Positions 34,424 to 55,118 of a stretch of 55,454 nucleotides of DNA are shown here, piece by piece. Origin of the DNA: Aurantimonas marina (GTDB lineage Bacteria > Pseudomonadota > Alphaproteobacteria > Rhizobiales > Rhizobiaceae); contig NZ_JADDXW010000020.1 of the NCBI RefSeq assembly GCF_017183135.1, forward strand, positions 1 to 55,454, read 5' to 3'. Under the pieces are notes generated by a model, which worked only from the letters and a program-made list of their open reading frames with translations, was not told where the DNA came from and searched no databases. Position 1 is the stretch's first letter, and each line of letters begins with the position of its first letter. A program made the position numbers and the translations under genes.

Positions 34424-34819
34424 TCAATGCGGATGCTGGCCGAGGCGGGAATGGAGCCGGGCGTCATGCGTCTTGAAGTGCTCGGTGAACCACGGGTCCA
34501 GTGCCGCGACCAGCCGGTCGGCCTGCGGCCCGGTGCCGGTTTCATAATCGCTCATGATATCCCGCAGTTCATCGAGGAGCCGCTCGTGATCCGCCTTGTG
34601 CTCGGTCAGTTGGTCATAGTCCTCTTCGCGCATGAACTTCTCCTCCAGCGCGAAATGCGCCGATATCCCGCGCAAGAGATCGCCGAAGGCCGCGTCCGCA
34701 TCGCCCCCGTTCGCCAGCGCGTCGCCCAGCCGGTTGACGAGATCGATCAGTTCCTTGTGCTCGTGATCGACGGCCGGAACGCCGACGCTATAGCTGTCTT
34801 TCCATTCCATCCGGGGCAT
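34424..34819 (-). CDS. Bacteriohemerythrin, last gene of the NOR-like operon
   Basis: This 131-residue protein has every diiron ligand of hemerythrin: His21 (DHEH), His55 and Glu59 (HFALE), His74 and His78 (HKADH), His114 and Asp119 (HFKTHD). Such proteins bind O2 or NO. The start at 34819 follows AGAGGAG. It lies 21 bp after the unknown protein gene and ends the operon whose promoter lies at 41111. A role in binding NO, or in guarding iron centres against it, fits the setting but is inferred. Confidence 0.9.
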   Translation of the reverse strand: MPRMEWKDSYSVGVPAVDHEHKELIDLVNRLGDALANGGDADAAFGDLLRGISAHFALEEKFMREEDYDQLTEHKADHERLLDELRDIMSDYETGTGPQADRLVAALDPWFTEHFKTHDARLHSRLGQHPH

Positions 34820-34840
34820 CGGTGCTCCTCTCACAAAAAA

Positions 34841-35338
34841 TCAGTTGAAGACAAAGCCGCCCTGCTCGGCGCGAAAGTCGATGGCGAGATTTTGCTCCGC
34901 CGTAAGGGTAATGCGGCGCGCGGCCTCGTAGTCGAAGCCCTCGGCGCGCCCAGTGTCGGCCAGGCGGACGGCGATTTCATGGTCGCCCGCGCCGAGCGGG
35001 AAACGCTTGTACACACGAGCCGGGCCGTCGCCGGCCAGGCCGCTCGGCGGCAGTTCGGCGCGAAGCGCCGGCTCACCATCGATGTCGAGTTCGAGCCGAA
35101 GTGCCGCGCGCTCGCGATCGCAGATCTCCCGCTTGCGCATATTCGCCGGCAATCTCGCCAGTTCCTCTGCGTCGAGCTGTCGGCAGTTGCGCGCGCCGCC
35201 ATGGGTGAAGCTGAGCTTCACCAGCCCCATCCCCTCCGGCAGGCTCCGCCATGACGGCGCGGCGGAAAAAAACGCCGCGCCGGTGGCGACCAGCGTCGTC
35301 ACGGCGGTACCGAGGATCAGGCGGCGGACCCGGCTCAT
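34841..35338 (-). CDS. Membrane-anchored periplasmic protein of unknown function
   Basis: The 165-residue protein has an N-terminal hydrophobic anchor (RLILGTAVTTLVATGAAFF, residues 6-24). Its soluble part is probably periplasmic and has two Cys (ARNCRQL and KREICDRER). The second half is beta-rich, with alternating strands such as LRLELDIDG, VYKRFPLGAGDHEIAV and RRITLTAEQNLAIDF. The ATG overlaps the stop of the cytochrome b fusion gene in an ATGA, so it is made with that protein. I do not recognise the family. The coupling suggests a subunit or maturation factor of that complex. Confidence 0.85.
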   Translation of the reverse strand: MSRVRRLILGTAVTTLVATGAAFFSAAPSWRSLPEGMGLVKLSFTHGGARNCRQLDAEELARLPANMRKREICDRERAALRLELDIDGEPALRAELPPSGLAGDGPARVYKRFPLGAGDHEIAVRLADTGRAEGFDYEAARRITLTAEQNLAIDFRAEQGGFVFN

Positions 35339-36906
35339 GGCTCGACCTCCTCGATCGACTGGGCGGACTGCCGCGTCGCTCCCGCCGACGGACGAACATC
35401 GGCTGGCAGCGCGGCGAGACGCTCCTGGAAGGCTCCCAGTTCGCGCGCAAGCCGCGCCGTTTCCGTCGGCCCTGCCCAGATCGTCGCCAGCCGGGCGCGC
35501 GGCACCCGGGCGCGCAGATAGGGATCGCGGGTCGCCGCGATACGCTGCTCGGTCCATTCGATGCCGAACCGGTGCTGGCATTCCCGCTCGGCGCAACCGG
35601 CGATCGCCACGCCATCGGCCAGATCGCGCGACAGGATGAAGTCGATCAGCGATGGCGCGGTCATAGCAACACAGGGCAGCACCACGCGTCCCGGCATATC
35701 CCTTCCCGCCGCGCCATGGGCGCAGGCCAGCGTCAGCACCCGTCCCGCCCCTTCCAGCGTCTCGGCGGCCTCGATTACCTGCTCGCGCACCATCTTCAGG
35801 GAGAGGTCAGGCAGGTCGATCCCGGTCACCAGATCGATGGAGCGGCGGAACGGCGTCGAAGACGGGCATGAACCCATGCAGATGCCGCAGGCGACGCAAC
35901 GATCGGGGTCGACTTCGGCCTGGTGGGGAAACGGTGCGCCATCGGTGCGCGGCACCAGTGTGACCGCGCCATAGGGGCAGTCCTCGACGCAGCGGTTGCA
36001 GCCGTTGCAATGGTCGAGGAACACCTCGACCGGCGCTGGTCGAGGCTTGGGCGGCAGCCACGGCAGGGCCGTGATTCCGACGGTAAAGAGCACCACCCCG
36101 GCCCAGATCACGCCCGCCGGCACCAGATCCATCACCGGATAGAGCGGTAGGACGAACCAGTCGATCCCGACCTGCGCCGGCACCTTCGCCAGGTCGGCCG
36201 CTGCTTGCGAGCGGGCCGGCAACAGCAGCGAGGCGATCAAAAGGCCCGCCAGAACCATGCCGCCAAGTTCCCGCGACGGCGCGGTCCGGGCATTGGTGAT
36301 CCGCTGGATATGAATCCACATCACCAGCAACAGGATCAGTGGCACTGCGATGTGGAGGAACACCAGGAGAGTGAAAAATCGCCCGCTCAAAGCGTCGGGC
36401 GTGAGAAAATTCCGTGCCACCGGCTCGCCGAAGATGGGCAGCCAGTCGAGCAACTCGGTGCTGGCGATGGCGACATATTGCGCCAGACGATCCCAGACCA
36501 GCCAATAGCCGGTGATGCCGCAGATATAGACCAGCCAGATCAGTGGGACACCGGTGATCCAGGAGAACCACCGCGCGCCGCGATGGCGCCCCCTGGCGAA
36601 CTCGCGCACCAGATGGACCAGCATGACCGCGATCATCAGGTCGGACGCGTAGCGGTGAAAACTCCGCGCGATGCCGGCGTGGAACCAGTGGTCGTTGGTC
36701 AGCCACTCGATCGACGTATAGGCATTCACCACGCCGGTATCGAAGAAGATGAAGAGATAGACCCCGGTGGCCGTGACGATCCAGAACAGGAACCAGCCGA
36801 GCGTACCAAGCTGGGCCATCGGATTCCATTCCGGCCCGAAGACGGCGTCGAGCGCCCGTTCGACCCGGTCGAAGCCGCGGCAAAGAACCGTCCCGAACGC
36901 GCTCAT
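35335..36906 (-). CDS. Fusion of di-heme cytochrome b, 2[4Fe-4S] ferredoxin and MvhD-like domain
   Basis: Residues 1 to about 230 match the cytochrome b N-terminal domain: two His pairs 14 residues apart, H84/H98 and H185/H199, can bind two b hemes in the membrane. After further helices to about residue 285, a ferredoxin domain has C300-C303-C306-C310 and C337-C340-C343-C347. Residues about 385-480 resemble the MvhD/FrhD iron-sulfur subunit, with conserved-type C395, C412, C438 and C443 (GCAERECQHRFG). Such a chain could take electrons from quinol and pass them through Fe-S centres. It overlaps its neighbours on both sides by 4 bp in the NOR-like operon. The partner is unknown. Confidence 0.9.
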   Translation of the reverse strand: MSAFGTVLCRGFDRVERALDAVFGPEWNPMAQLGTLGWFLFWIVTATGVYLFIFFDTGVVNAYTSIEWLTNDHWFHAGIARSFHRYASDLMIAVMLVHLVREFARGRHRGARWFSWITGVPLIWLVYICGITGYWLVWDRLAQYVAIASTELLDWLPIFGEPVARNFLTPDALSGRFFTLLVFLHIAVPLILLLVMWIHIQRITNARTAPSRELGGMVLAGLLIASLLLPARSQAAADLAKVPAQVGIDWFVLPLYPVMDLVPAGVIWAGVVLFTVGITALPWLPPKPRPAPVEVFLDHCNGCNRCVEDCPYGAVTLVPRTDGAPFPHQAEVDPDRCVACGICMGSCPSSTPFRRSIDLVTGIDLPDLSLKMVREQVIEAAETLEGAGRVLTLACAHGAAGRDMPGRVVLPCVAMTAPSLIDFILSRDLADGVAIAGCAERECQHRFGIEWTEQRIAATRDPYLRARVPRARLATIWAGPTETARLARELGAFQERLAALPADVRPSAGATRQSAQSIEEVEP

Positions 36907-37727
36907 GCGCGGCTCCGTCCCCGACCGGCCAAGCGCCGGTTGCCGAGCCAGAGCCGCAGGATAACGATCCCCGTCAGGATCAGCGAGAGCCCGCCGAGCA
37001 CGATGCCGAAGCCGATCGCATAGTCGAATTCATAGACGCCGGTCGCCGGGTTGTAGGTCGTACAGATGAAGCCGATGCGATCGATCAGGGACTGCGGGCT
37101 CAGATCCTTGAGCCGGATGCCCCAGACCAGTTCCTTCATCGGCTCGAGAAAGACCTGGATCGGGAAGTCGTCACCGTAGATCTGGCGGTAGACGCGGCCT
37201 TCAGCGTCGAGGAGCGTCGTCTGGGTGATATGCTCGAAGCCGCCGGCGGCGGCGCGATAGCTGAAACCGACATCGGCGAGAAGCCGCCGCAGCGTCGCCG
37301 CGTCGGCGCTGGCGATCCGCCAGTCCGCCTCGGGAATACGCTGCGTTTTGGCGAAGGCGTCGAGCCGGGACGGCGTGTCGTTACGGGCGTCGAAGCCGAG
37401 TGTCAGCACCGAGAATTGCCCCGCGCCGAAGACCTCGCGCGCTTCCTCCACCGCCTCGATCACCCGCTGCGTCGTCGGCGGACAGACCGACGCGCAACTC
37501 GTATAGACGATGCTGACCACCAGCGGCCGGCCGCGAAGCTCGGCCAGCGGGAGCGGCGCGCCATGACGGTCGACCAGCGTATAGTCACCGACGAGCCCGC
37601 CTACCGCGGCCTCGCTCGCGGCCACCATTTCGGCCGGGTCGAAGCTCTCGGCGCCCTGCACCCGCAACGGCAAGAGGGCGGCGAGGAGGAGCGCTGTCGC
37701 GATCAGGCCGCGGATCAGATCGCCCAT
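36903..37727 (-). CDS. SCO family copper chaperone with C-terminal membrane anchor
   Basis: SCO proteins deliver copper to the CuA site of subunit II. This 274-residue protein has an N-terminal signal or anchor (ALLLAALLPLRVQGA), the copper motif C78-x3-C82 in YTSCASVCPP and the later ligand His166 (FEHITQ). An unusual C-terminal extension ends in a second hydrophobic helix (IGFGIVLGGLSLILTGIVIL, residues 238-257). The start at 37727 lies 13 bp inside the end of ctaB. It serves the CuA subunit encoded upstream. Confidence 0.9.
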   Translation of the reverse strand: MGDLIRGLIATALLLAALLPLRVQGAESFDPAEMVAASEAAVGGLVGDYTLVDRHGAPLPLAELRGRPLVVSIVYTSCASVCPPTTQRVIEAVEEAREVFGAGQFSVLTLGFDARNDTPSRLDAFAKTQRIPEADWRIASADAATLRRLLADVGFSYRAAAGGFEHITQTTLLDAEGRVYRQIYGDDFPIQVFLEPMKELVWGIRLKDLSPQSLIDRIGFICTTYNPATGVYEFDYAIGFGIVLGGLSLILTGIVILRLWLGNRRLAGRGRSRA

Positions 37728-38584
37728 CGGACCGCGGCGTCGAGATAGACGCCCGTGACAAGCAGCGCGAATTGCACGAGCGAAGCGCGAAAATTGGCCA
37801 TCGCAGTCTGCCGCGACGGCGCCGCCAGGAGCTGGACCGAGCGCCACAGGAACAGTCCGCCGCCACCGAGCGCGAAGACGCCATAGACCGGGCCCATGCC
37901 GGTGGCGAGCGGTAAGAGGGAGAGCACCAGCAACACGGCCGCATGGCCGAGGATGATCGGCGCCCATACCTCTTCGGACACGATCACCGGCAGCATCGGC
38001 ACGCCGCTCCGCCGGTAATCGTCGCCCTTCGCCGCCGCCAGCGACCAGAAGTGCGGCGGCGTCCAGAAGAACATGACGAGGGCGAGGATCACCGGTGTCG
38101 CCTGCATTTCGCCGCCGACCGCCGCGGCGCCAGCGAGGATCGCGAAACTGCCGGACGCGCCGCCCACCACGATGTTCCACACGCTCCGCCGCTTCAGCCA
38201 TACGGTATAGACCCAGCCATAGGTGATGGCGCCGAGAAACAGCCAGAACGCCGCCAATGAACCTCCGACCGACCAGGCCATGACCAGCGAGGCGAGCAGC
38301 AGCCCGGCGAAGGTCACGGGCCAGACCGGACCGGGCTTCAGGCGGCCGCTGGCGAAGGGCCGGGCATGGGTCCGCCGCATGTCCCGGTCGCTCTCGCGCT
38401 CCCAGTAATGGTTGAAGGCGCCGGCCGCGCCGCTGGCGCCGAGGACCGCGAGCAGGAAGACGCCGGCCTGGAGCGGCGAGAGCGCGCCCTCGCTGGCCAG
38501 CATCCCGGCCAGCGCCGCCAACGCGACGGCGAAGCCTATCCTCAGCTTCAGGATCGAACCGGTTATGCGGAGCGCGGCCAGCAT
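37715..38584 (-). CDS. ctaB: Protoheme IX farnesyltransferase (heme O synthase)
   Basis: CtaB/CyoE adds a farnesyl group to heme B to make heme O, the precursor of heme A. This 289-residue membrane protein has the prenyl-diphosphate motif AFNHYWERESDRDMRRTHAR, then RSVWNIVVGGASGSFAILAG and FFWTPPHFWSLA. It is slightly short because the N-terminal cytoplasmic tail is missing. It lies 10 bp after the subunit I gene, so the heme-copper enzyme here probably uses heme O or A, unlike cbb3 oxidases and cNOR, which use only hemes b and c. Confidence 0.95.
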   Translation of the reverse strand: MLAALRITGSILKLRIGFAVALAALAGMLASEGALSPLQAGVFLLAVLGASGAAGAFNHYWERESDRDMRRTHARPFASGRLKPGPVWPVTFAGLLLASLVMAWSVGGSLAAFWLFLGAITYGWVYTVWLKRRSVWNIVVGGASGSFAILAGAAAVGGEMQATPVILALVMFFWTPPHFWSLAAAKGDDYRRSGVPMLPVIVSEEVWAPIILGHAAVLLVLSLLPLATGMGPVYGVFALGGGGLFLWRSVQLLAAPSRQTAMANFRASLVQFALLVTGVYLDAAVRWAI

Positions 38585-38594
38585 CGCTTCGCCC

Positions 38595-40328
38595 TCACCG
38601 GAACAGCCAGAGATCGGACAGATACTTCCAGTTCACGAAGTAATAGAGCACGAAGGAGACAAAGAAGATCGTCACCAGCACGATCGTGCCCGGCAGCTTC
38701 ACCGTCCCCTCGCTACCGTAGTGCGATGCCGCATACGGTCCCTGTGCATGCAGCGGGAAGTGCATCGGCTGCCCTCCGGCGGTGTCGAGCTTCTTGCCGA
38801 ACAGCACGGTGCCGACCGTGATCAGGATATAGAGCGCGCCACCCAGCCCAGCGATCAGCGCGAAGATACCGTTCAACCCCATCATCAGGAAGGCGCCGGG
38901 CGCATACTCGAAGGCATGCACCGCATCGGTCAGGGTGATGTCCCAATGCCGACGTGCGACGCCGAGCGTACCCGCTCCCATCATGAACAGCGAGATCCCC
39001 GCGGCCCCGATGCCAAAGAGATAGGGCTGCCACTTAGCCAGCTTCGGCCAGATGACCTCGCGCTGGAAGATCAGCGGCAGCACCAGATAGGTGACCGCCA
39101 TGAAGGCGAGCGTGGTGCCGGCGACGACTGTGCCATGGAAATGGCCGGGAACGTAGATGGTGTTGTGCATCAGCACGTTGAGCTGCTCGGTGCCGAGCAC
39201 GACGCCGGAGATGCCACCGATGAAGCCGAACATGACGAGGCTGAGGAACATTCCCGAAAAGGCCGGGTTGCCCCAGGGCGCCTTCTGCAGCCACTCGAAC
39301 CAGCCCTTCCGGAAGCCGTTGCGCCGCTGCGCCGCCTCGATCGAGCCGGGCACGGTCATGCCGTGGATCATCGAGCCCATGACGGCCAGATACATCATGT
39401 AGGAGGTGTTGATGATCTTCCACTCGGCGCTCATGCCGGGCTCGGCGAGCAGATGGTGCGCCGAGGCGAGCTGCAGGAACAGGATGTACATCAAAAAGGC
39501 GGTCCGGCTGACCTTCTCCGACAAGGGCTTAGCCCCCACCACCAGCGCCGCGATCAGATACCAGACCGAGACATGGGCTGAAACGTTCATCTGCTGCGAG
39601 GAATGGCCCATCCCCCACCAGACGACCTTGTACATCAGCGGATCGATGTTCGAGATCAGCCCGAGCGACCAGAGCCAGGTCGGGATCAGGATGATCGCGC
39701 CGGACGCGATGGTGAACACCGCGATGATAGCCGCCGTCAGCGCGCCGAAGGTGACCAGCGGGATCGACCCCTCATAGGTGCGCTCGGCGCGGGCGATGAC
39801 CAGGGTTCCGAAGAAGACGGCGACGCCGATCAGGGCGCCGACGGCGAACAGGATGAGCGACAGATAGAACCAGGACGACGCCATCATTGGTGGATAGGAC
39901 GTGAACATCACCGACGAGTCGCCGCGCAGCACCGCGTAATTCGCCATCAATGCGCCGACGAGCATCAGTACGAAGCCGAGCCATGCGAATTTCGGCGCCG
40001 CGATGCGGGAGTTCAAAAGGATCGCCGAGGCGAAATAGAGGATCGCGATCTCAAAGAAGATGATCCAGAACAAGAGCACATTGGCGCCGTGGCCGGTCAG
40101 GACCAGATAGAACCACTCGGCCGGCAGAAGATGCACAGCCGGCCAGCGGGTCAGCGCGACCGCCACCCCCATCAGCCCGCCGAGCAGCAGAAAGACGACG
40201 GCTGCCACCGCATTGGCCTTGATCAGCCGCTGGGCGGCGATGTCGACCTTCAGCCCCGTGTAGCCGCATTTGCGGAAGACCGCCTCGGAGAAAGCACCAG
40301 GCGCGATGCCTGCATCGATCGTGGTCAT
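38595..40328 (-). CDS. Heme-copper subunit I lacking the A/B-type active-site Tyr, candidate NO reductase
   Basis: The 577-residue protein has about 14 helices and the heme-copper ligands: H80 (low-spin heme), H242, H291 and H292 (CuB), H396 and H398 (GHFHGTV, both hemes). In A- and B-type oxidases the first CuB His is followed four residues on by the crosslinked Tyr (HPEVY). Here the sequence is GHSSQQMN, with Gln246 at that place. The helix VII position used by cbb3 Tyr (six before the His pair) is Leu285. Without that Tyr, efficient O2 splitting is unlikely, and NO reduction becomes plausible. The CuA subunit and Dnr box agree. CuA-type NORs (eNOR, sNOR, gNOR families) are known; I cannot place it among them. 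Confidence 0.85.
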   Translation of the reverse strand: MTTIDAGIAPGAFSEAVFRKCGYTGLKVDIAAQRLIKANAVAAVVFLLLGGLMGVAVALTRWPAVHLLPAEWFYLVLTGHGANVLLFWIIFFEIAILYFASAILLNSRIAAPKFAWLGFVLMLVGALMANYAVLRGDSSVMFTSYPPMMASSWFYLSLILFAVGALIGVAVFFGTLVIARAERTYEGSIPLVTFGALTAAIIAVFTIASGAIILIPTWLWSLGLISNIDPLMYKVVWWGMGHSSQQMNVSAHVSVWYLIAALVVGAKPLSEKVSRTAFLMYILFLQLASAHHLLAEPGMSAEWKIINTSYMMYLAVMGSMIHGMTVPGSIEAAQRRNGFRKGWFEWLQKAPWGNPAFSGMFLSLVMFGFIGGISGVVLGTEQLNVLMHNTIYVPGHFHGTVVAGTTLAFMAVTYLVLPLIFQREVIWPKLAKWQPYLFGIGAAGISLFMMGAGTLGVARRHWDITLTDAVHAFEYAPGAFLMMGLNGIFALIAGLGGALYILITVGTVLFGKKLDTAGGQPMHFPLHAQGPYAASHYGSEGTVKLPGTIVLVTIFFVSFVLYYFVNWKYLSDLWLFR

Positions 40329-40339
40329 GGCGCTCTCCT

Positions 40340-40873
40340 TTATTCAGTCACGCGAATCCGGCCGGTCATCTGATGATGGCCGATGCCGCAATATTCGTTG
40401 CAGACGATGCTGAATTCCCCGGACTCAGTCGGGGTCAGGTTGATGACATGCTCGTATCCGGGATGGACCTGGATGTTGATGTTGGTGGGCTGCAGCGAGA
40501 ATCCGTGCTGCCAGTCGGCCGAACTCATATGGATACGATAGCTCTGATCCTTCTTCAGCTCGAGGATCGGCCACCACTCCCACAGCCGGGCGAGAAGGAA
40601 GACATCCTCGCCGGCGGGCGGGCGGACCACCGGTACGCCCTCCTCCTCGCCGACCTGCCATTGCTCAGCGAACGCCTCGACCTTCTCGACATATTTGTCG
40701 GGGTTGATCCGGTAGGTCTCTGTCGACAGATTCTGCTCGCCGATGAAGTGCCAGGCGATCATGAAGAAGAACATGAACAGGCCCCAGAGGAAGGCGATGA
40801 CGATCCAGCTCAGCTCGATCTTGTGGATCGGCTCGTTCCACCAAATCCGGTTCTGGGGAGGGGTGATGGCCAT
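40340..40873 (-). CDS. CuA-containing subunit II of the heme-copper enzyme
   Basis: The 177-residue protein has one N-terminal helix (LSWIVIAFLWGLFMFFFMIAW, residues about 21-41) and a periplasmic cupredoxin domain. The binuclear CuA site is complete: H123 (DWQHGFSL) and C158, E160, C162, H166 and M169 in CNEYCGIGHHQM. Electrons therefore enter from a soluble cytochrome c or cupredoxin. This sets the complex apart from cNOR (heme c subunit) and qNOR. It stands between the 53-aa peptide gene and subunit I with gaps of 9 and 11 bp. Confidence 0.93.
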   Translation of the reverse strand: MAITPPQNRIWWNEPIHKIELSWIVIAFLWGLFMFFFMIAWHFIGEQNLSTETYRINPDKYVEKVEAFAEQWQVGEEEGVPVVRPPAGEDVFLLARLWEWWPILELKKDQSYRIHMSSADWQHGFSLQPTNINIQVHPGYEHVINLTPTESGEFSIVCNEYCGIGHHQMTGRIRVTE

Positions 40874-40882
40874 CTCGGGGTC

Positions 40883-41044
40883 CTATTGAGCGAGTGGAAT
40901 CGAGGCGATCTCCATCACGCCCCAGATCAGGTAGAGAACCGTCGGAATCGTGATCCCGAACACCAGCAGCAGGAACGGATTGTCGAGCAGTCGCTGCATG
41001 AAAGGGATTCGCTCCGGTCGCGGAGTGTCCTGTTCATCGGCCAT
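40883..41044 (-). CDS. 53-residue single-helix peptide, probable small subunit
   Basis: The ATG at 41044 follows GGAAGGGACCATC and opens a 53-codon gene. About 20 charged or polar residues (MADEQDTPRPERIPFMQRLL) are followed by one membrane helix (FLLLVFGITIPTVLYLIWGVM) and a short tail. It stops nine bases before the subunit II ATG. Small single-helix subunits (III/IV) are common in heme-copper enzymes. Its place as first gene after the FNR/Dnr promoter makes it very likely real. Confidence 0.8.
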   Translation of the reverse strand: MADEQDTPRPERIPFMQRLLDNPFLLLVFGITIPTVLYLIWGVMEIASIPLAQ

Positions 41045-41083
41045 GATGGTCCCTTCCCTTCCGGAGGTTCACGAGACCTTTCA

Positions 41084-41089
41084 AGAATA
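41084..41089 (-). promoter_or_regulatory. -10 element of the NOR-like operon
   Basis: TATTCT on the minus strand, 21 bp from the edge of the FNR/Dnr box. This is the class II spacing, with the box centred near -41.5. Transcription would start near 41077, giving a leader of about 32 nt before the 53-aa peptide gene. Confidence 0.55.
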
Positions 41090-41110
41090 CTCACGCCCGG
41101 CCGGCGCGGC

Positions 41111-41124
41111 TTGACCAAAGTCAA
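41111..41124. promoter_or_regulatory. FNR/Dnr box of the NOR-like operon
   Basis: TTGACCAAAGTCAA (TTGACTTTGGTCAA on the minus strand) is a perfect TTGAC-N4-GTCAA dyad, the form typical of Dnr/Nnr regulators that sense NO. It lies 66 bp upstream of the first gene of the operon and after the chelatase gene, so the operon has its own denitrification-type promoter. Confidence 0.88.
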
Positions 41125-41182: not shown

Positions 41183-41914
41183 TCAAGCCGCGACTTTCCC
41201 GGCATGCATCGACAGCGCGACCGCGACGATCGGCGCGATCTCCGACCGCGTTCCCACGGGATCGAGTATCGGGCCGGGAAAGGCCACCTCGGCGAGAGCC
41301 CGGGGCAAGTCGACATCGACATGCCCCGCCCGCCCGGCAAAGAACGGCAGGCACAAGGCCGGGCCGCCGAGCCAAGCCGCCTCGGCCAGATACGGAGCCT
41401 CGTCCACGAAGCCGACGCGAATTTCGCGAAACAGCCCGGCGGCGGCGATGAAGCGCGCGGCCTTCTCGGCGGCTTCGCGTGGCCGGGGATCCGACGGCGA
41501 TCCATGCGCGGCGAGAAGGATCGTGGTCTCCTCCAGCGATAAATCTCGCTCCGACGCAGCGCGGCGTACGCAATCGAGGCAGAGCGCGTGCAGGGCCGGA
41601 TCGAGTCCCAGCGGCGACAACATCGAGAAGGAGCCGTCGCGGAGCTCGCCGATCCGTCGCGGCAATTCGCGGCTGACGAACCAGCCGTCCGACATGAACA
41701 GCGGATAGATCGACACTTGCCGGTTTCCGAGCGTATCGAGCGCCGCTTTCAGCGTGTCTCGACCGGCTAGCGTCGCCCCGCGAATGGCCCAGCCGGGGAG
41801 CCTCGCCGCCACACGATCGGCCAGCGCGGTAAGCTCCGCCTCCGGCCGCTCGGGCGCCGAGGGGGAACCGTGCGAGACGATGAGCGCGGCGCGCGGCTCA
41901 GTGGCTGGTGCCAT
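41183..41914 (-). CDS. CbiX/SirB-like sirohydrochlorin chelatase
   Basis: The 243-residue protein has two CbiX-like halves, each with a metal-binding HGS: ALIVSHGSPSAPE near the start and ILLAAHGSPSDPR in the middle. CLPFFAGRAGHVDVDLPRAL near the end resembles the LPFFLxxGxH motif. It probably inserts Fe2+ (or Co2+) into sirohydrochlorin. Heme d1 is made from siroheme, and this gene is the last of the nir operon, overlapping nirN by 17 bp, so Fe insertion for heme d1 is the likely job. The start at 41914 drops nine upstream codons. Confidence 0.85.
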   Translation of the reverse strand: MAPATEPRAALIVSHGSPSAPERPEAELTALADRVAARLPGWAIRGATLAGRDTLKAALDTLGNRQVSIYPLFMSDGWFVSRELPRRIGELRDGSFSMLSPLGLDPALHALCLDCVRRAASERDLSLEETTILLAAHGSPSDPRPREAAEKAARFIAAAGLFREIRVGFVDEAPYLAEAAWLGGPALCLPFFAGRAGHVDVDLPRALAEVAFPGPILDPVGTRSEIAPIVAVALSMHAGKVAA

Positions 41915-43448
41915 CCGAAAAGCTGATCTTGTTCCAGACATTATACTTCCCCGAGGGCTTTCTCATCGGCAACCGGGTGACTTCCTCAAGCGTCTTCGCG
42001 TCGTAGACGATGACCGCACCGTCATCCTCCCAGACGCTGACCAGCGCGTGCTTGCCCCCCCGGTCGAACTCGACATGGGCGACGGTGGCGCCGGGAACCG
42101 GGCGCAGGGTCTCGACGATCTCCAGCGTCTGCTTGTCGATCACATGCATCGCGTCCCGGTTCGGGCCGAAGAACACGTCGGCCCAGACATAGCGGCTGTT
42201 TTCGTGACTGCGCAGGAAGAAGCCGGGACCGAGGGTCTCGATCGTTTCGACCACCTGCCAGGTCTCGATGTCGATGACCGAGAGCCGCGCCTCCTTCAGG
42301 TGCGGCGTCGCCATCACCCGCCGGCCGTCCCTGATCCAGGAGATGCCCGAGCCGAGATGCGGCAGGCCGGGCAGCGGCAGCTCCGCGATCTCACGACCGA
42401 CGGTCAGGTTCACGACCACGCCGCGTTCGCCGTCGCGCGCCGCGCCAATCAGGTGGCGGTAATCCGGCGTGAAGAAGAAGTCGTCGAGCGGGCTCGTCAC
42501 CGCAATCCGGCGCAGAGCGAACAGCCCCTTTGACCCCGCGACCGCCTCGACCATCCCCTTCTCGTAACTGTGGACATAGCCCTCATAGACCGGCGCGGCA
42601 TCGGGATCGGTCGCGATTTCCCAAATTTCCGGCGCGTCCTTGAGCGCCAGGATGAAACTGTCACGCTGCGGCGCCTGATAGACGGCAGACACGCGCGAGG
42701 GCGTGCCGTCCTTGTCCACCACATCGAAGACCTTCTCCACCGACAGATCGGCGGTCGCAAGGATGGTCAAGGTGCGCGGCAGATAGTTCGCCACCGCCAG
42801 ATGCTTGCCGTCCTTGGAGATCGCGATGTTGCGGCTGTTCAGCCCGGCGCGGATACGGCCGATCTCGGCAAGGCTCCACAGATCGTATTTCTGCACCCAG
42901 CCGTCGCGCGACATGATGAAGACGAACCGTCCGTCGGGCGTGAATTTCGGCCCGCCATGCACGGCGAAGGGCGTCGGGAAACGATCCAGCACCGTAAAGC
43001 TGTCCCCGTCCAGGACACTGACGTGATGATCGCCGGTTTCGACGACGAGGAACAGGTTCAGCGGATCGGCATCGAAGGCCGGGGCCGTGACGGGCACATA
43101 GTCCGGGTCGAGCGTCCGGGTTCGTTCGATCTGCTCCGGACCCCAGTCCGGTATTTTTGCCAGCGACGCGATCAGGTAATCGCCAAGGGCCGCGATCTCC
43201 TCGGGGTTCAGGGAAGCGGCGAAGCCGGGCATCTGCGTCGACGCGCGGCCTTCGGCGATCACCGCGCCAAGTTTTGGGCCCCGCATCCGCTCCAGTGTCT
43301 CCGGGATCAGCGCCGGGCCGGTGCCGCCGAGTCGGTCGGCGCCGTGGCATTCGGCGCAATACCGTGAATAGAGCGCCCGTGGCTCGCCCTCTGCCGCGCC
43401 GGCGAAGACCACCAGCAACAGGCTAGTGAAAACGATGAACCGGATCAT
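41898..43448 (-). CDS. nirN: NirN, c-type cytochrome with cd1-like propeller (heme d1 synthesis)
   Basis: NirN catalyses the last step of heme d1 formation (dehydrogenation of a side chain) in the periplasm and can pass heme d1 to NirS. The 516-residue protein has a signal peptide, a cytochrome c domain with C31-A-E-C-H35, and an eight-bladed propeller of the cd1 type ([66 protein letters not shown]). It is close to NirS in fold, but the cd1-like motifs differ. It starts 26 bp inside the end of nirJ. Confidence 0.92.
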
Positions 43449-44631
43449 GGCTCTTTCCCCGAAACGGCGTGACAGTCAGGCGCCCGGCCGCTTTGACCCC
43501 GATCTCGGCGTCGCTCATGTAGCAGGCCGGATCCTCGGCCCAGGGATCACCCGTGAGCTGGAGCGCGCGGATTCGGGTATTGCCGCCGCACACGCTCTGA
43601 TAGGTGCAAGCTCCGCAACGGCCCTTCAGCGGGCGCGGACGGCGGCGCAGCTGCGCCAGCATCGGGTCGTCACCGGTCCACAGCTCGGAGAAGCGGTGCT
43701 CCTTGACGCTGCCAATGGTGTAGTCCGACCAATAGGTGTCGGGATGCACATTGCCCTGCGGGTCGATATTGGCCACGCCCAGACCGGAGGAATTGCCGCC
43801 CCAGGCCTCCAGATGTGCGCGCAGATGCGCGACCCGCTCGGCCGGGAAAAGGCGTTCGGCCCAGCGTAGAAAGCACACCGCGTCGGCGTCGTTGTTGCCG
43901 GTGACGATCTCCAGTGGCATGCCTTCGGCCGCCGCGACCCAGGCGCGGTCGATCAGAAGCTCCATCGCGTGACGCGACCGCGACCAGCCGGCGTCCTCGC
44001 AGCGGTGCTTGTCGCCGCGTCCGGCATAGACCAGATGCGACAAATAGAACTTGTCCACCCCTTCCGCATCGGCCAGCGCCAGAATCTCGGATAGCTGATG
44101 GGCGTTGTCCTCGGTGATGGTGAAGCGCAGGCCGACCTTGATACCGCGCTCCTTGCAGGCCCGCACACCCGCCAGCGCCTCGTCGAAGGCGCCGACCTTG
44201 CCCCGGAACCAGTCGTTGGTCTCGCCGATCCCGTCGAGGCTGATGCCGACATAGTCGAAGCCGATTTCGGCCACGCGGTCGGCCGCCGCGCCGACGATGG
44301 CGGTGCCATTGGTCGAGAGCGCGAGATACATCTTCATCTGCCGCGCCCGCTCGGCAATCTCGAAGACGTCGCGGCGGGCCAGCGGTTCACCGCCGGAAAG
44401 GATCAGCGCGGGGATACCGAAATCGCCGAGATCCTCCAGCACGCCCATCGCCTGGTCATGGGACAGCTCTCCGGGAAACGCCACATCCGCGGAACTGGTG
44501 TAGCAGTGGCGGCAGCGCAGGTTGCAGCGCCGGGTCAGGTTCCAGATCACCACCGGCTTGACCGGCCCCCGGCGCGCGCACACCGGGGCCGGGTCGACCA
44601 GTTGACGCATGTAATGCGAGAGGCGGAACAT
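43423..44631 (-). CDS. nirJ: NirJ, radical SAM enzyme of heme d1 synthesis
   Basis: NirJ replaces two propionate side chains of didecarboxysiroheme by oxo groups. The 402-residue protein has the radical SAM cluster C36-x3-C40-x2-C43 ([13 protein letters not shown]), [13 protein letters not shown] for SAM, and a C-terminal SPASM-like cysteine region ([15 protein letters not shown]). The start at 44631 ([12 protein letters not shown]) shares one base with the nirH stop (TGATG). It lies between nirH and nirN. Confidence 0.95.
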
Positions 44632-45122
44632 CAGCGCCCTCCTTTGCGGCCGAGCCGCAGACCGGTTTTCTTCAGGATGCGCGTCGAATAGAGGATGTCG
44701 CCGCTGCGGCGGGCGGGACCAAGCAATGCCGCGATGCGCTCGCGCTTTGCCTCGACTTCGTCGCGGTCGCTGCCATGCACCATGGCGAAGAGATTGAAGG
44801 GCCAGACGGGTCGCGCGCGGGGCCGCAGATAGCAGTGCGAGACAAAGTCGAGCGCACCCACCTCGGCGCCAAGCCGCGCCGCCGCGCTGTCCTCCACGTC
44901 CCAGACCGTCATGCCGTTGGCGACCATGCCGAGCGCGTAATGATTGGGCGCCGCCCCGATGCGGCGGATCACGCCGCGTTCCCGCATGACCGCCATGCGT
45001 TCGATCACCTCGGCTTCGCCCAGTCCCAACTCCGCCGCGATCGCCGCATAGGGCGCGGGCGTCAGCGGAAGCCCCGCCTGAGTAGCCTCGATGATCCCCC
45101 GGTCGATCGCGTCGATGCTCAT
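44631..45122 (-). CDS. nirH: Siroheme decarboxylase subunit NirH (AsnC-like)
   Basis: NirD, L, G and H remove acetate carboxyl groups of siroheme to form 12,18-didecarboxysiroheme. This 163-residue protein has an AsnC-type winged helix followed by a RAM-like domain. The [24 protein letters not shown] block is typical of NirH, and [13 protein letters not shown] holds a conserved His. It is not a DNA-binding regulator in this context. The start overlaps the nirG stop by 4 bp. Confidence 0.9.
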
Positions 45123-45583
45123 GCCGCCACCCTGAAACCGATGAAGAATTCCTGCAGCTTCGGAAACCGCAGCACGGCAAGCCCCGTCTCCGCCTCGATT
45201 TCATCGGCAACGGCCTCGACTGCCTCCGCCATTTCGGTCGCCAACACGAACCACATGTTGAGACGATGCTCGCGTTGGTAATTATGCGCGACCTCCGGAT
45301 GGGCGTTGACCGCAGCCGCCACGGCCTCGAAACGCCCGGCCGGGACATCCATCGCGCACAGGCAAAAGGCCCCTCCGAGCGCGGCCGCGTCGTAGAACGG
45401 GCCGAAGCGCGTAATCACACCGGTTTCGCGCATGCGGCCCAGCCGTGAAATCAACTCGCCCTCGCTCAGGCCGAGCCGCGTCGCCGCCTCCGCATAGGGA
45501 CGCGGTGTGAGCGGAAATCCTTCCTGCAGGGCGTTGACGATCAGCCGGTCGGTCGCATCGAGTCCAGGCGCGGGATGACTCAT
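45119..45583 (-). CDS. nirG: Siroheme decarboxylase subunit NirG (AsnC-like)
   Basis: The 154-residue protein starts at 45583 ([20 protein letters not shown]), where its ATG overlaps the NirDL stop in an [27 protein letters not shown] is the NirG signature, and [17 protein letters not shown] follows. The long upstream frame in the same phase is an overlap artefact of nirDL. It works with NirH and NirDL in siroheme decarboxylation. Confidence 0.9.
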
Positions 45584-46572
45584 GCCGCTGCTCCTTCCGT
45601 GGCCGCCACCAACGCTCCCGTCTGCTTGAAGCAGCGAATGCTGAACAGCACCCGATGCGGCGTATCCTGAAGTCCGACTTCGCGGCTGGCGCGCTCGAGC
45701 ACCGCCATCGCCTCGCCGCGGCTGCGGGCATGGATCATGCAGTAGAGCGTATAGGGCCAGGCACCGGGGGCCGGGCGTCGTTGATAGCAGAGCGTGACGC
45801 CAGGCACGGCGGTGAGCGCCGGGCCGACGCGGCCCGTATCGGCCTCGTTGGTTTCCCAGACAACCATGGCGTTGGACCGCCAGCCAAGCGCGCGATGACG
45901 CACGATGACACCGATCCGCGACAGGATACCTGCTGCGGCAAGCGCCTTGACCCGTTCCAGCACGTCCGCCTCGGACCGGCCGAGCGCGCGGCCCAATTCG
46001 GCGAAAGGACGGGGCACCAGCGCCAGCCCGGTCGAGAGTGCCTGTATGATCGGTCGGTCCCCCGGCTCCAGTACGCCCGCGTCGACATGTTCCCGCGCCG
46101 GCGGCACCCGACCGGTGCCGTCGAGCGCGAAGCCAAGATCGACGTTGAACGCGCGCACCAGCGGAAGATCGAGCACCTCCAGTTTCGTGAAGGCGCGTAT
46201 CCGGCCAAGCGTCGCGTCGATATGCGCCCTGTCGGGACCGGTCACCACGAACCAGATGTTCCAGCGGTTCTCGCGCAGATAGGAGTGGTTCACGCCCGGC
46301 TCGCCGCCGATGAGGGCGGCGATCTCGTCGATCCGCCATTCGGGAGCCGCGACGGCGGCCAGCGTGCTCGCGCCCGCGGTCCCAGGCCGGCAAGTGGCGC
46401 CGACGCGGCTGACGGCGCCAATCGCCATCAATTCGGCGAGCCGGCCGAGAACGTCCTCCTGACAAAGGTCCATCCGCTCGGCGATGGCGGCAAAGGGTCG
46501 CGGCACCAGCGGAAAATCCCGCTGCCAGTTATCGAGCAGCACGCGATCGATGGTGTCGATGGTCAAACTCAT
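45580..46572 (-). CDS. nirDL: Fused siroheme decarboxylase subunit NirDL
   Basis: The 330-residue protein joins two AsnC-like halves. Residues 1 to about 150 are NirD-like (SRVGATCRPGTAGASTLAAVAAPEW, then SYLRENRWNIWFVVTGPD). Residues about 165-320 are NirL-like (LSRIGVIVRHRALGWRSNAMVVW, PYTLYCMIHARSRGEAM). Pseudomonas has two separate genes, while several alphaproteobacteria have this fusion. It starts three bases after nirF stops. Confidence 0.93.
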   Translation of the reverse strand: MSLTIDTIDRVLLDNWQRDFPLVPRPFAAIAERMDLCQEDVLGRLAELMAIGAVSRVGATCRPGTAGASTLAAVAAPEWRIDEIAALIGGEPGVNHSYLRENRWNIWFVVTGPDRAHIDATLGRIRAFTKLEVLDLPLVRAFNVDLGFALDGTGRVPPAREHVDAGVLEPGDRPIIQALSTGLALVPRPFAELGRALGRSEADVLERVKALAAAGILSRIGVIVRHRALGWRSNAMVVWETNEADTGRVGPALTAVPGVTLCYQRRPAPGAWPYTLYCMIHARSRGEAMAVLERASREVGLQDTPHRVLFSIRCFKQTGALVAATEGAAA

Positions 46573-46575
46573 CGC

Positions 46576-47736
46576 TCACAGCCCCGTCCGGTGGGCGCGC
46601 GCGGTAAAGAATATCCCCGACGGGCTCTCCGCCGCGATCTCGCCAAGCTTCTCGAAACTGCGCGCATCATAGATGTCGATGCGCCCGGCATCGCGGACCG
46701 AAACCCAGACCTCGTGGCCGCGGGCGGTGAATTCCAGGTGCAGCACGGCGGGTCCCGGCGTCAGCGTATGGATCACCTCGCCCGAAAGCGTATCGATCAC
46801 CTCGATCGTGTCGTTCAAAGGGTGAGCGAAATTGACCCAAACCTGGCGCCCGTCCGGGCGGGCGACGGCGAAGACGGGCTGGCCGTGGGTGGCTGTGCGC
46901 CCCACCTCAGCCAGCGTTCGCGCGTCCACCCAGAGCACCTCGTGCCGCCCGACGGCGGGCAGGACAAAACGGTCGCCCGCCAGCGCCCAGCCTTCCAGAT
47001 GAGGCATCTTGTAGACCGGCAGTGCTTCCTCGCCCTTGCCGTAGCCCGACAGAATCCGCCGCGGAACCGGCGGCTCCTGCCACAGATCGAGCGCCGTCAG
47101 CCCGTCCTCGCCGAACAACCCCGCGATGTAGCGCCGCCCGTCGCCGGTGATCAGCGCATCATAGGGGTTTCGGCCGATCCCGCCGATCCGGGTGATCGCC
47201 GGCTCCTCGCCGGAAAAGTCCGCGATCCACGTCTCCCCCGCGTCCCAAAGGGTGAAGACGAAACGCCGCCCCGGCGCGTCGACCAGACCGATGGTCTTCG
47301 ACCCGGTCGGGATGTCGGCGACGCTCTCCAGCGTTTCGGCATCGAAGACGCGCACGCCGCCCGGCTCGTAATTCGAGACTGCGACGAGTTGCCCGTCGTC
47401 GGAGATCGCACCGCCGATAGCGTTGCCCGATTGCACGATGCGGCCGGCGATCGACTGGGTCAGCAGATCGACCTTGGTCAGTCCGCCGTCGCGTCCGAAG
47501 ACGAAGGCGAAACGCTCGTCCGCCGAGAACACCACCGAGGCATGGGACAGATCGCCCAGGCCCTCGACCCGCCCGATGGCGGCGTGCTCGGACTGGTCGA
47601 TGATCAGCAGCGAGCCGGTGGCCCGTTCCACCACCACGCCCAGATCGCCGGTGGCACGGGGCTCCTGCGCCTGGGCGACGCCGAGGAAAACCGCGAACAC
47701 CAGCATGGTTAGACCAAGGGAAAAGCCACGGCTCAT
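46576..47736 (-). CDS. nirF: NirF, heme d1 biosynthesis protein
   Basis: NirF is a periplasmic propeller protein that acts on pre-heme d1 before NirN. The 386-residue protein has a signal peptide (LGLTMLVFAVFLGVAQA) and then a propeller like the d1 domain of NirS without the cytochrome c domain: GDLGVVVERATGSLLIIDQ, RFAFVFGRDGGLTKVDL, GQPVFAVARPDGRQVWVNF and GHEVWVSVRDAGRIDIYD. Its ATG overlaps the nirC stop in an ATGA. Confidence 0.95.
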   Translation of the reverse strand: MSRGFSLGLTMLVFAVFLGVAQAQEPRATGDLGVVVERATGSLLIIDQSEHAAIGRVEGLGDLSHASVVFSADERFAFVFGRDGGLTKVDLLTQSIAGRIVQSGNAIGGAISDDGQLVAVSNYEPGGVRVFDAETLESVADIPTGSKTIGLVDAPGRRFVFTLWDAGETWIADFSGEEPAITRIGGIGRNPYDALITGDGRRYIAGLFGEDGLTALDLWQEPPVPRRILSGYGKGEEALPVYKMPHLEGWALAGDRFVLPAVGRHEVLWVDARTLAEVGRTATHGQPVFAVARPDGRQVWVNFAHPLNDTIEVIDTLSGEVIHTLTPGPAVLHLEFTARGHEVWVSVRDAGRIDIYDARSFEKLGEIAAESPSGIFFTARAHRTGL

Positions 47737-48047
47737 TCATTGCCTCCGTCCAAGAGATAGTCGGCGATCCAGGCCGCCTCTTCATCGCTGAGGAGCGGGC
47801 GCCAAGGCGGCATCGCGGTTCCCGGGACGCCATCGAGAATGATGGCGACAAGCCCGTCGGGCTCCGTCCCGGCCAGCGTCTCGGCGCGGATATCCGGCCC
47901 CAGCCCGCCTTTCAGCGTCATTCCGTGGCATGAGCCGCAATCCTGCAGCACCAGACGCTCAAGTTCAGCTGCCCGGCCCGGCGGCAGCTCCTGCGCCAAC
48001 GCCGACGCCCCGACAACGAGCCAAAGGGCCACCAGAACCTCACGCAT
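47733..48047 (-). CDS. nirC: NirC, cytochrome c55x
   Basis: The 104-residue protein has a signal peptide (VALWLVVGASALAQE) and one heme c site, C37-G-S-C-H41. TAMPPWRPLLSDEEAAWIADYL supplies the Met ligand and the last helix of a class I cytochrome c. In Pseudomonas NirC can give electrons to NirS and may help mature heme d1. The start at 48047 overlaps the nirE end by 8 bp. Confidence 0.93.
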   Translation of the reverse strand: MREVLVALWLVVGASALAQELPPGRAAELERLVLQDCGSCHGMTLKGGLGPDIRAETLAGTEPDGLVAIILDGVPGTAMPPWRPLLSDEEAAWIADYLLDGGNE

Positions 48048-48828
48048 GAGCCAACGGCGCATGAACGGCGGCCAGATGCGTGAACAATTCGGCGGGTGAC
48101 GAGCGGTAAAGCGAGACGACATCGCCGATCAGGAACAGCACCGGGCCGGTGAGACGCGCCTCAGCCATGTCGCTCGCGATCCGCTCCAGATGGGAGGTCA
48201 GCCGCCGCTCGCGCGGCGTCGTCGCATTGGCGATCACCAGCACGGGCGTCGCCGCGGGCATGTCGTGTGCGATCAGCCGTTCGGAAATCTCCGCGATATT
48301 GGCGGCCCCCATATAGACGACCAGCGTGGTCTGGGTGTCCGCCAATCCCGGCCGTTCAAGGTCGAGCGGCCTGTCGCTCCGGCAGTGTCCGGTCACGTAG
48401 CGCACGCCCGTCGCCAGCCCGCGATGAGTCAGCGGCACACCGGTGACGGAGGCCGCCCCCTGCGCCGCCGTGATGCCGGGGACGATTTCAACCGGAACAC
48501 CCGCGGCCCGCAAGGCTTCGGCCTCTTCCGAACCGCGACCGAAGATGAAAGGGTCGCCGCCCTTCAATCGCACCACCGTCTGCCCTTCGAGTGCCAGCTC
48601 GACGAGGATTTCGTTGATCCGCTCCTGCGGAACCGGATGAGAGGTCGGCGCCTTGCCGACCGGCACAAGCCGCGCCGTCGACGGCGCCAGCGCCAGCACC
48701 TCGGGCGACACCAGACGGTCATGGACCACGACATGCGCCAGTTCCAGAACGCGCGCCGCTTTCAACGTCAAAAGCTCCGGATCGCCCGGACCCGCCCCGA
48801 CCAGAAACACCCGACCACGCGTCTTCAT
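48040..48828 (-). CDS. nirE: NirE, uroporphyrinogen-III C-methyltransferase
   Basis: NirE methylates uroporphyrinogen III at C2 and C7 to precorrin-2, the entry to heme d1. The 262-residue SUMT-family enzyme has GRVFLVGAGPGDPELLTLKA, VVHDRLVSPEVL, VVRLKGGDPFIFGRG, and PGITAAQGAASVTGVPLTHR. It lacks the CysG dehydrogenase/ferrochelatase half, so the precorrin-2 oxidation step must come from elsewhere; the chelatase at 41183 could supply the metal step. It lies 58 bp after nirS. Confidence 0.93.
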   Translation of the reverse strand: MKTRGRVFLVGAGPGDPELLTLKAARVLELAHVVVHDRLVSPEVLALAPSTARLVPVGKAPTSHPVPQERINEILVELALEGQTVVRLKGGDPFIFGRGSEEAEALRAAGVPVEIVPGITAAQGAASVTGVPLTHRGLATGVRYVTGHCRSDRPLDLERPGLADTQTTLVVYMGAANIAEISERLIAHDMPAATPVLVIANATTPRERRLTSHLERIASDMAEARLTGPVLFLIGDVVSLYRSSPAELFTHLAAVHAPLAHA

Positions 48829-48886: not shown

Positions 48887-50720
<1,834 letters not shown>

Positions 50721-53770: not shown

Positions 53771-53844
53771 CGCTGTGATCATCGACAGGCGCGCGAACGA
53801 TGACGGGGCGGTCATCGACCTGAACGCCGCCACCCGCCAGTTTC

Positions 53845-54414
53845 TCAGACCGCCAGCGCGGGCGCAAGCTCCGGCGGCAGGTCGAATTCGGCGGCGACGC
53901 GTGCGCGGCCCTCTGCCGACATCTTGCGGGCGGTCTTGGCGACGATGCCGAAGATTTTTTCGTGGTCGTGGCTGGCGGCGAAATCCGCGAAATACCAACG
54001 CAGGAACACCAGGCAGATCACGTCCTCCAACATCTGCACCTCCGGGTCGCGCTTGATCGCCTCCTTGCGCAGCATCTGCGCCACGCGCGCGCCGTCGGCC
54101 TCGCAATAGCCCGCCGCGATCATCAATTCCGCCACCCGCGCGCCATGCGCCAGCGCCTGTGCCCTCCGCCAGGCGTGATAACCCTCGCGGCCGTCTGGGT
54201 ACGCACGTCGCGGCAGCTTCCAGCGCTCGATGTGCTGGCCGCGCGCCGCGATCCGCAGATGCTCGGACGCACCCGGACAGATTCGATCGAGCTCCCCTGA
54301 CATCCGCCGGCCATAGACCAGCGCCGCCGGTTCCCGCGTCTCCGCTTCCAGCGCCGGATCGGCGGCGTTGGCGCTGTCGATCGCCGCGATCACCGTCTCG
54401 AGCCGTCCGCTCAT
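53845..54414 (-). CDS. DUF4202 family protein
   Basis: The 189-residue protein is of the DUF4202 type, often found near nitrogen-oxide or sulfur genes, and has no known activity. Conserved-looking parts are ETREPAALVYGRRMSGEL, ARGQHIERWKLPRRAYPDGR, YHAWRRAQALAHG, and QMLEDVICLVFLRWYFADF with many His and Arg. It is cytoplasmic and helical, perhaps like an HD-type protein. Its ATG at 54414 overlaps the stop of the Dnr-like regulator (ATGA), so the two are coupled. Confidence 0.85.
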   Translation of the reverse strand: MSGRLETVIAAIDSANAADPALEAETREPAALVYGRRMSGELDRICPGASEHLRIAARGQHIERWKLPRRAYPDGREGYHAWRRAQALAHGARVAELMIAAGYCEADGARVAQMLRKEAIKRDPEVQMLEDVICLVFLRWYFADFAASHDHEKIFGIVAKTARKMSAEGRARVAAEFDLPPELAPALAV

Positions 54415-55118
54415 TGGGCCTTGCTCCACGCATCGGCACGGTCCTCTTCGACATAGGAGCGCAACCGTCCGACATCCGCGATGGCGGCGTGATTGTGGCT
54501 GATCGCCACGCCGTTCTGCTTCAGTCGCGCAAAGGCGCGGGACAGGCTTTCCGGCTTCATGCCCAGCCGCCCCGCGATCAGCACCTTGTCATAGGGCAAG
54601 GTCACGGTGCATGCGCCTTCGGCGACGGGGCAGAGGTCGAGCAGGAATTCGGCCAGCCGTTGCGCACCGGTCTGGGCCTTCAGTTGCTCCACCTGTTCAA
54701 CCAACGCGTGGAGGTGCTTGAAGGTCGCCGCCAGCATCGAGATGCAAAGCTCCGGCTGCGACTTCATCATCTGCAGCACCACTGCCGCAGGCACCTGCAT
54801 CAGCCGGCAATCGGTGACCGCCTCGGCGGCGACCGGATAAACGTCGCCGCGAAACGCCACCGCCTCGCCGAAGCTTCGGCCCTTGGTGAAGGTTCCGACC
54901 ACCGCCTCCGCCCCGTTATGCGCGATCCGGAACAGCTTCACCCATCCTTCCAGCACGATATAGACGCTGTTGGCGGTATCGCCCTGCAGGAAGATCGTCG
55001 CCGATCGGCCAAACTTCCGGACGTCGGACCGCGCCAGGATCATCTCGGCGACATCCTCGGGTAGGCTGGCCAGGAGGATGGACCCCTTTGCGATCTTCCA
55101 GTCGCCTTCCCGCTGCAT
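54411..55118 (-). CDS. dnr: Crp/Fnr-family regulator, Dnr-like
   Basis: The 235-residue protein has a cNMP-like sensor domain (IFLQGDTANSVYIVLEGWVKLFRI, GRSFGEAVAF), a long dimer helix, and a C-terminal HTH with LGMKPESLSRAFARLKQNG. The recognition helix has E-S-L-S-R, the ExxSR form that reads TTGAT half-sites in FNR. It lacks the N-terminal cysteine cluster of oxygen-sensing FNR, which makes it a Dnr/Nnr-type regulator, usually NO-responsive through heme. Three matching boxes lie in this window. It is followed by DUF4202. Confidence 0.9.
   Translation of the reverse strand: MQREGDWKIAKGSILLASLPEDVAEMILARSDVRKFGRSATIFLQGDTANSVYIVLEGWVKLFRIAHNGAEAVVGTFTKGRSFGEAVAFRGDVYPVAAEAVTDCRLMQVPAAVVLQMMKSQPELCISMLAATFKHLHALVEQVEQLKAQTGAQRLAEFLLDLCPVAEGACTVTLPYDKVLIAGRLGMKPESLSRAFARLKQNGVAISHNHAAIADVGRLRSYVEEDRADAWSKAQ

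Follow-up and report, generated by a model that had tools for sequence, protein, structure and literature searches.

The 55,454-nucleotide stretch analysed here (the window) is one whole contig, NZ_JADDXW010000020.1, of the 4.03-Mb, 99% complete genome of Aurantimonas marina (assembly GCF_017183135.1). On its minus strand, from position 41044 down to 34424, lie eight genes that overlap or are separated by short gaps, encoding a putative CuA-type nitric oxide reductase (NOR) of the eNOR family together with a protein in which a cytochrome b is fused to a ferredoxin and an FlpD domain. An earlier interpretation made from the letters alone (the sequence-only reading) had described eight tightly packed genes here, and all were confirmed. 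Pfam models scoring above cut-off name five of the eight proteins, and neither the 53-amino-acid (aa) peptide nor the anchored protein matches any Pfam or NCBIfam family. The features, some with predicted transmembrane (TM) helices, are:

41111..41124, minus strand: FNR/Dnr-type box TTGACTTTGGTCAA, upstream of the operon
40883..41044, minus strand: 53-aa peptide with one TM helix, likely to be a small subunit of eNOR; found in place at 121 of the 124 unique loci that are uncut
40340..40873, minus strand: eNOR subunit II with CuA and one TM helix; COX2 just under cut-off, plus six CuA residues
38595..40328, minus strand: eNOR subunit I; Pfam COX1, ligand alignment, Gln246 and trees
37715..38584, minus strand: heme O synthase (CtaB/CyoE); NCBIfam TIGR01473 above cut-off
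36903..37727, minus strand: SCO copper chaperone with a C-terminal TM helix; Pfam SCO1-SenC
35335..36906, minus strand: cytochrome b-2x[4Fe-4S] ferredoxin-FlpD/MvhD fusion; Pfam/NCBIfam, ligand alignment and topology
34841..35338, minus strand: membrane-anchored, predicted periplasmic all-beta protein; structure model
34424..34819, minus strand: bacteriohemerythrin, 131 aa from the ATG; NCBIfam NF033749 above cut-off

Subunit I is identified by Pfam as a COX1 protein, with no NCBIfam oxidase model reaching its cut-off. Its closest named relatives are on Aurantimonas contigs (97-98% identity), the named loci being the best 80 of 530 confirmed matches and skewed to close relatives, with further loci added from other genomes. 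It was first aligned with 15 relatives and with oxidases; by alignment to ba3, the heme and CuB ligands are H80, H242, H291, H292, H396 and H398. The sequence-only reading had noted the lack of the A/B-type Tyr, and the position of that cross-linked residue in helix VI is in fact occupied by Gln246. All eight other B-family rows of the alignment have Tyr here, whereas the Gln and the six ligand His are kept in 126 of 126 subunit I rows (residue counts leave out rows outside a length range). Glu93 is present in the same 126 eNOR rows and in no non-eNOR row of the comparison alignment. In the available part of PMC8756737, Gln at the Tyr position defines eNOR, and one proton channel is listed as a trait of the family. 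Subunit II scores 20.5 bits against the Pfam COX2 cut-off of 22, and its CuA motif is complete (H123, C158, E160, C162, H166 and M169), being kept in 127 of 127 rows. We take these residues to be the CuA ligands, as they are in CuA proteins.

In a careful tree, the window copy, its relatives and the copies from Thermus and Thermomicrobium form one clade (support 100/99), beside the B-family oxidases and apart from the A- and C-family enzymes and one cNOR; the clade is called eNOR by way of its Gln, and the Thermus and Thermomicrobium rows are labelled by the same Gln rather than being authenticated eNOR sequences. A quick second tree that included the cNOR of S. meliloti and the qNOR of C. necator concurs, giving the eNOR clade an SH-aLRT of 95; two very long rows of the first tree (Thiothrix NorB and an odd Azospirillum protein) were dropped from the second. 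Subunit I does not fall inside the oxygen reductases, the outcome named in advance as fatal to a role in NO reduction, and groups with eNOR beside the B-family oxidases instead. It also branches apart from the cNOR and qNOR rows and is accompanied by CuA, while the Gln sets it apart both from the A- and B-family oxygen reductases, with their cross-linked Tyr, and from sNOR, bNOR and gNOR, which have Asn or Asp at this position. The available parts of the literature describe bNOR, sNOR, gNOR and nNOR as likewise cupredoxin-type or B-family-related NORs; all four lie outside the trees, and the comparison with Table A4 of PMC8756737, which in the text available gives Asn in sNOR and CuANor and Asp in gNOR, is by description. 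Because Gln replaces Tyr, the CuA motif is complete and the clade is supported at 100/99, subunit I can be assigned to the known eNOR family, with which it shares the Gln, the clade and a cupredoxin CuA subunit II encoded just upstream, and it does not represent a new enzyme class. The available text of PMC11388526 lists eNOR as biochemically characterised. Hence the proposal of a CuA-type NO reductase holds at the level of the family, but the 'non-canonical' attached to it, in the sense of an undescribed enzyme, does not. A protein of 666 aa on a plasmid of Azospirillum sp. TSH58 (locus L224) is heme-copper-like and sits on a very long branch; its helix VI contains HNLHY, and Tyr aligns at two ligand places, one of a CuB His and one of a heme His.

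Gene order was compared over 129 unique loci, three duplicates having been removed from 132. All eight genes occur in the same order at 63 of the 101 loci with enough flanking sequence, and at 63 of 82 when subunit I is at least 66% identical to the window copy; losses in the latter group mostly concern ctaB (15 of 98 uncut loci, with one more elsewhere) or the hemerythrin (5 of 85). None of 19 loci in the more distant group has all eight genes: the hemerythrin was found in none of 19 uncut loci, and a hemerythrin profile run on 29 distant loci gave a single weak match (L169, E 4e-4). Like the peptide, subunit II (126/126) and SCO (122/122) are nearly always in place. Conservation of the eight-gene order, a check proposed with the sequence-only reading, is thus seen at many loci, and the package has the Fe-S fusion as a conserved member, joined among closer relatives by the hemerythrin.

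The six TM helices of the fusion correspond to helices A-F of cytochrome b, and the charges of its loops predict a cytoplasmic location for the C-terminal Fe-S part. None of the 48 aligned homologues departs from the four heme His, which as in the bc complexes lie in helices B and D, or from the twelve Fe-S Cys, of which the ferredoxin holds eight and FlpD four. The ef loop, between helices E and F, has xDW(F/Y/L) in all 48, one being PDWF, with D249-W250 in every row; the IDWF of the fusion aligns opposite the PEWY of the genome's own bc1 cytochrome b. According to the available part of PMC9162462, the second residue of PEWY-type motifs varies with quinone type and redox potential. The fusion hence shares helices A-F, the four heme His and an ef loop aligned at the Qo motif with the cytochrome b of bc1 and b6f, but has xDWF for PEWY in most rows, a ferredoxin and FlpD at its C terminus, and no recognised Rieske or cytochrome c1 gene in its vicinity. 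The C terminus of the fusion is similar to the ferredoxin-MvhD end of HdrA2, though far under the cut-off of that model; the order of ferredoxin then FlpD and the four FlpD Cys are the same, but in the fusion a membrane cytochrome b takes the place of the flavin HdrA domain. Judged by these residues, the protein combines the components of a quinone-reactive cytochrome b with wiring to the cytoplasm. Its ligands and topology fit the electron transfer implied by the term 'electron-input module' in the sequence-only reading, though input as the direction, and the role itself, are things that we only infer. A single in-frame TGA noted in the fusion of one genus, considered as possible selenocysteine, proved in the rows inspected to be the terminal stop codon only.

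Distribution ties the fusion to eNOR. In an evenly drawn sample of 385 genomes of the class, 23 had both, none eNOR only, one the fusion only and 361 neither; in a sample of 398 genomes of the phylum, which shares with the first the genome studied here and a few relatives, the numbers were 29, one, five and 363. The association is strong (Fisher p 4e-36 for the class and 8e-38 for the phylum, treating genomes as independent and uncorrected for kinship). The contig of the class exception (G276) breaks off within the SCO gene, which would cut off any eNOR farther on, and the five phylum genomes with the fusion only belong to genera otherwise having eNOR, four being 69-82% complete and the fifth lying in 730 contigs. 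In fourteen phylum genomes the fusion and eNOR are separated by more than 10 kb or lie on different contigs. Ten of these were fetched, and eight of them have a nirS-like gene no more than 10 kb from the fusion and anchored-protein pair; of the other two, L255 has no nirS-like gene in its 6 kb and in L257 the SCO gene at the edge marks a contig break. The anchored protein travels with the fusion. Five genomes (G500, G561, G586, G636 and G713) have two fusion matches each, close together on one contig, one of those in G713 being partial. A heme-copper subunit I paralogue of 459-480 aa lies beside the fusion and anchored-protein genes at three loci (L183:11490-12869, L255:466-1908 and L164:1124-2557); it is sister to eNOR in the quick tree and has kept the heme His but lacks the two helix-VII CuB His, and in L183 a CtaA gene comes next.

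The anchored protein is modelled as an all-beta structure (pLDDT 96), the fold of which we read as Ig-like, and has a Cys pair, C52 and C73, each kept in 98 of 99 rows. No PDB structure matched the model at E<=1e-3 (the best having E 5.8e-3), a PDB sequence search with the family returned nothing at E<=1, and Pfam searches on 50 family members gave scattered weak matches in one or two only, with no consistent family. This pairing of a membrane Fe-S protein with a periplasmic Ig-like domain beside a heme-copper enzyme recalls the cupric reductase CcoG, for which the available part of PMC7558416 describes two [4Fe-4S] clusters, a periplasmic Ig-like domain and a gene just downstream of the cbb3 structural genes. 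The fusion and its partner might thus be assembly factors, forming a cytoplasm-fed membrane reductase that maintains Cu(I) and reduced SCO thiols during the loading of CuA and CuB, much as has been proposed for CcoG and the cbb3 oxidase; the position of the fusion gene after the structural genes, right behind ctaB and SCO, and the conserved Cys pair of the all-beta partner would suit such a role. However, two bis-His heme sites and a Qo-like motif exceed the needs of a cupric reductase, and the Ig-like part, which in CcoG belongs with the copper sites to the Fe-S protein itself, is here a separate protein without a Pfam link to the CcoG domain. Apart from the cofactor ligands, the invariant and near-invariant columns of the fusion include no His, Cys or Met, and the off-cluster pair lies near nirS, which has no copper, in eight of the ten fetched loci. 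Cofactor content and nirS linkage moderately favour electron transfer over assembly, and we regard the latter as a possible but doubtful explanation, to be given perhaps half the credence of electron transfer.

If the unit does transfer electrons, it could also bifurcate them, quinol at the Qo-like site delivering one electron towards CuA, while the other would pass along the b hemes and the Fe-S chain to an acceptor of low potential in the cytoplasm; NO respiration would then generate reducing power. A single polypeptide holds the xDW Qo-like motif, the two b hemes and an Fe-S chain leading to FlpD, and its C-terminal part is the one resembling, at a score far below the model cut-off, the end of HdrA2; against this, no Rieske-like high-potential acceptor was seen nearby, no partner for FlpD was recognised among the neighbours, and reverse flow would need identical parts. 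Quinone-based bifurcation is therefore unlikely on present evidence. The wider idea that NO respiration is coupled through a Rieske-less cytochrome b-ferredoxin-FlpD protein to the bifurcation of quinol, sending low-potential electrons to the cytoplasm, is speculative to the same degree. We know of no such energy conservation in denitrification.

As the sequence-only reading had it, the operon adjoins nirS, the cluster of which was confirmed upstream on the same strand. The remaining features are:

41183..48828, minus strand: heme d1 genes nirE, nirF, nirDL, nirG, nirH, nirJ, nirN-like and CbiX-like, between nirS and the eNOR operon; some names assigned by analogy with known clusters
48887..50641, minus strand: nirS, cytochrome cd1 nitrite reductase; Pfam Cytochrom_D1 and a cytochrome c domain
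54411..55118, minus strand: Crp/FNR-family regulator, candidate for the box; Pfam cNMP_binding and HTH_Crp_2

The regulator ends the region upstream of nirS (50775-55118), which also encodes ApbE/NirX and an Fe-S protein, Fer4_5 to Pfam, that we name NirI/NosR-like. The lack of norCB, earlier noted for the window, extends to the whole genome: cNOR and qNOR protein queries found nothing at E<=1e-5, while both positive-control records were recovered. The heme-copper subunit I family PF00115 occurs at seven places. By motif and tree we assign three of them to the A type and two to the cbb3 type (of which one, at a contig end, is partial); one with HPAVY is of unclear type, and the last is the eNOR. 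The HPAVY oxidase (L005) sits on a long branch beside the A-family rows, and its gene is followed by one for a Met- and Asp-rich cupredoxin-like protein. Since no cNOR or qNOR was matched, yet nirS, the heme d1 genes and nosZ are present, eNOR is probably the only NO reductase of this genome, with NirS the likely source of its NO. Similar searches covered 40 of the 52 eNOR genomes in the set: 31 match neither cNOR nor qNOR, 27 of these having NirS, and the other nine comprise five with strong cNOR matches, two with qNOR and two with weak matches only. NirS is matched in 36 of the 40, and NosZ in 22 at E<=1e-60, 20 being above the family cut-off. With 31 of 40 lacking cNOR and qNOR matches and 36 having NirS, the usual setting therefore appears to be a NirS denitrifier with eNOR as its lone NO reductase.

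This setting bears on whether the enzyme might instead be an oxygen reductase, or a dual O2/NO scavenger, under microoxic conditions. The solved structures nearest to subunit I are B-family ba3 oxidases, no eNOR being among the matched structures, and these share its fold and its heme and CuB ligands; the ligand set could bind O2, which the hemerythrin could supply. Such an activity is nevertheless very improbable, given the replacement of the B-family Tyr by Gln, the nirS neighbourhood, the absence of any other matched NOR and the FNR/Dnr-type box. The eNOR of Rhodothermus marinus, moreover, reportedly reduces NO; Murali et al. are said to have characterised a Rhodothermus eNOR in 2024.

The box had been described as perfect and followed by a TATTCT -10 sequence. 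Its position and its perfect inverted repeat were confirmed, as was the TATTCT hexamer, -10-like and starting 45 bases ahead of the peptide ATG, but one base in each half departs from the FNR/DNR consensus TTGATnnnnATCAA, as quoted in the available part of PMC1274295. Of 128 loci, 79 carry the pattern TTGA[TC]N4[AG]TCAA in the 250 bp ahead of the peptide (76 of 125 once the three duplicates are removed), compared with 45 of 2640 random 250-bp windows of those loci, which exceeds chance expectation. The Crp/FNR regulator is a candidate for pairing with it.

The 53-aa peptide has one predicted helix, and its homologues are found as small open reading frames (ORFs) before subunit II in the eNOR clusters of Thermus (E 7e-8) and Thermomicrobium (E 2e-15); hence the peptide has probably long been a subunit of eNOR. 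At L075, L076 and L082 its gene is detached, lying near nirS on the strand opposite to eNOR. The CxxxC motif and His of SCO (C78, C82 and H166) are kept in 110 of 110 rows. For the hemerythrin the ATG was taken as the start, the ORF list beginning at an upstream GTG; the residues expected as its ligands (H21, H55, E59, H74, H78, H114 and D119) are present in 78 of 78 rows, and it is likely to be a di-iron protein that binds O2 or NO. A parallel is found on plasmid pHG1 of Cupriavidus necator (L238), where the gene of a di-iron protein, annotated ytfE, directly precedes that of a NO reductase, although YtfE is of another family than the hemerythrin and the reductase there is a qNOR. We presume this ytfE to be the gene known as NorA.

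Taken as a whole, we lean, with some reserve, towards an eNOR operon in which the fusion and its anchored partner form a dedicated transmembrane electron-transfer unit for NO respiration. NirS would turn nitrite into NO in the periplasm, and eNOR, made up of the peptide, subunit II and subunit I, would reduce this to N2O with electrons entering at CuA. CtaB would provide heme O, or the precursor of heme A, and SCO would load copper. The fusion would react with quinone or quinol at a Qo-like site on the periplasmic side, its two b hemes spanning the membrane and its Fe-S clusters exchanging electrons with a soluble carrier on the cytoplasmic side, while the hemerythrin might capture stray NO or O2.

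Several observations weigh against this interpretation. Co-occurrence and gene order cannot separate an electron donor from an assembly factor. One genome of the phylum sample (G441), 97% complete, has eNOR without the fusion, and tblastn found no fusion in the 19.7 kb read from the Thermus and Thermomicrobium eNOR regions; therefore eNOR does not everywhere have the fusion nearby. Seven of the 40 eNOR genomes carry cNOR or qNOR as well, and four have no NirS match (NirK was not searched for). Among the 27 gene groups present in at least eight of the 129 neighbourhoods, none could be recognised as a constant Rieske, cytochrome c1 or cytosolic flavoprotein neighbour, the exception being a small cytochrome c in 18 loci; hence neither end of the proposed electron path has an identified partner. 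Several of these groups are shadow frames or unnamed, with the Crp regulator, NnrS and cytochrome c named by Pfam and the ApbE/NirX and NirI/NosR-like groups by eye.

In the available part of PMC8756737, eNOR has two subunits, and a separate paper describes nirK linkage in Ardenticatena; in neither is a fusion, anchored protein or hemerythrin mentioned. The association of these three with eNOR is undescribed in the accessible parts of the open-licence literature searched, which is weak evidence of novelty, and the package may already have been noted in the main eNOR literature. As eNORs are often annotated as cytochrome oxidases, denitrifiers can be scored as lacking a NO reductase. In the genomes sampled, the fusion, whose heme and Fe-S ligands are all in place, is a nearly obligate partner of eNOR, and can serve as a marker for the system where the oxidase-like subunit is ambiguous. 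It also makes the electron supply of eNOR, and energy conservation in NO reduction, testable by single-gene deletions.

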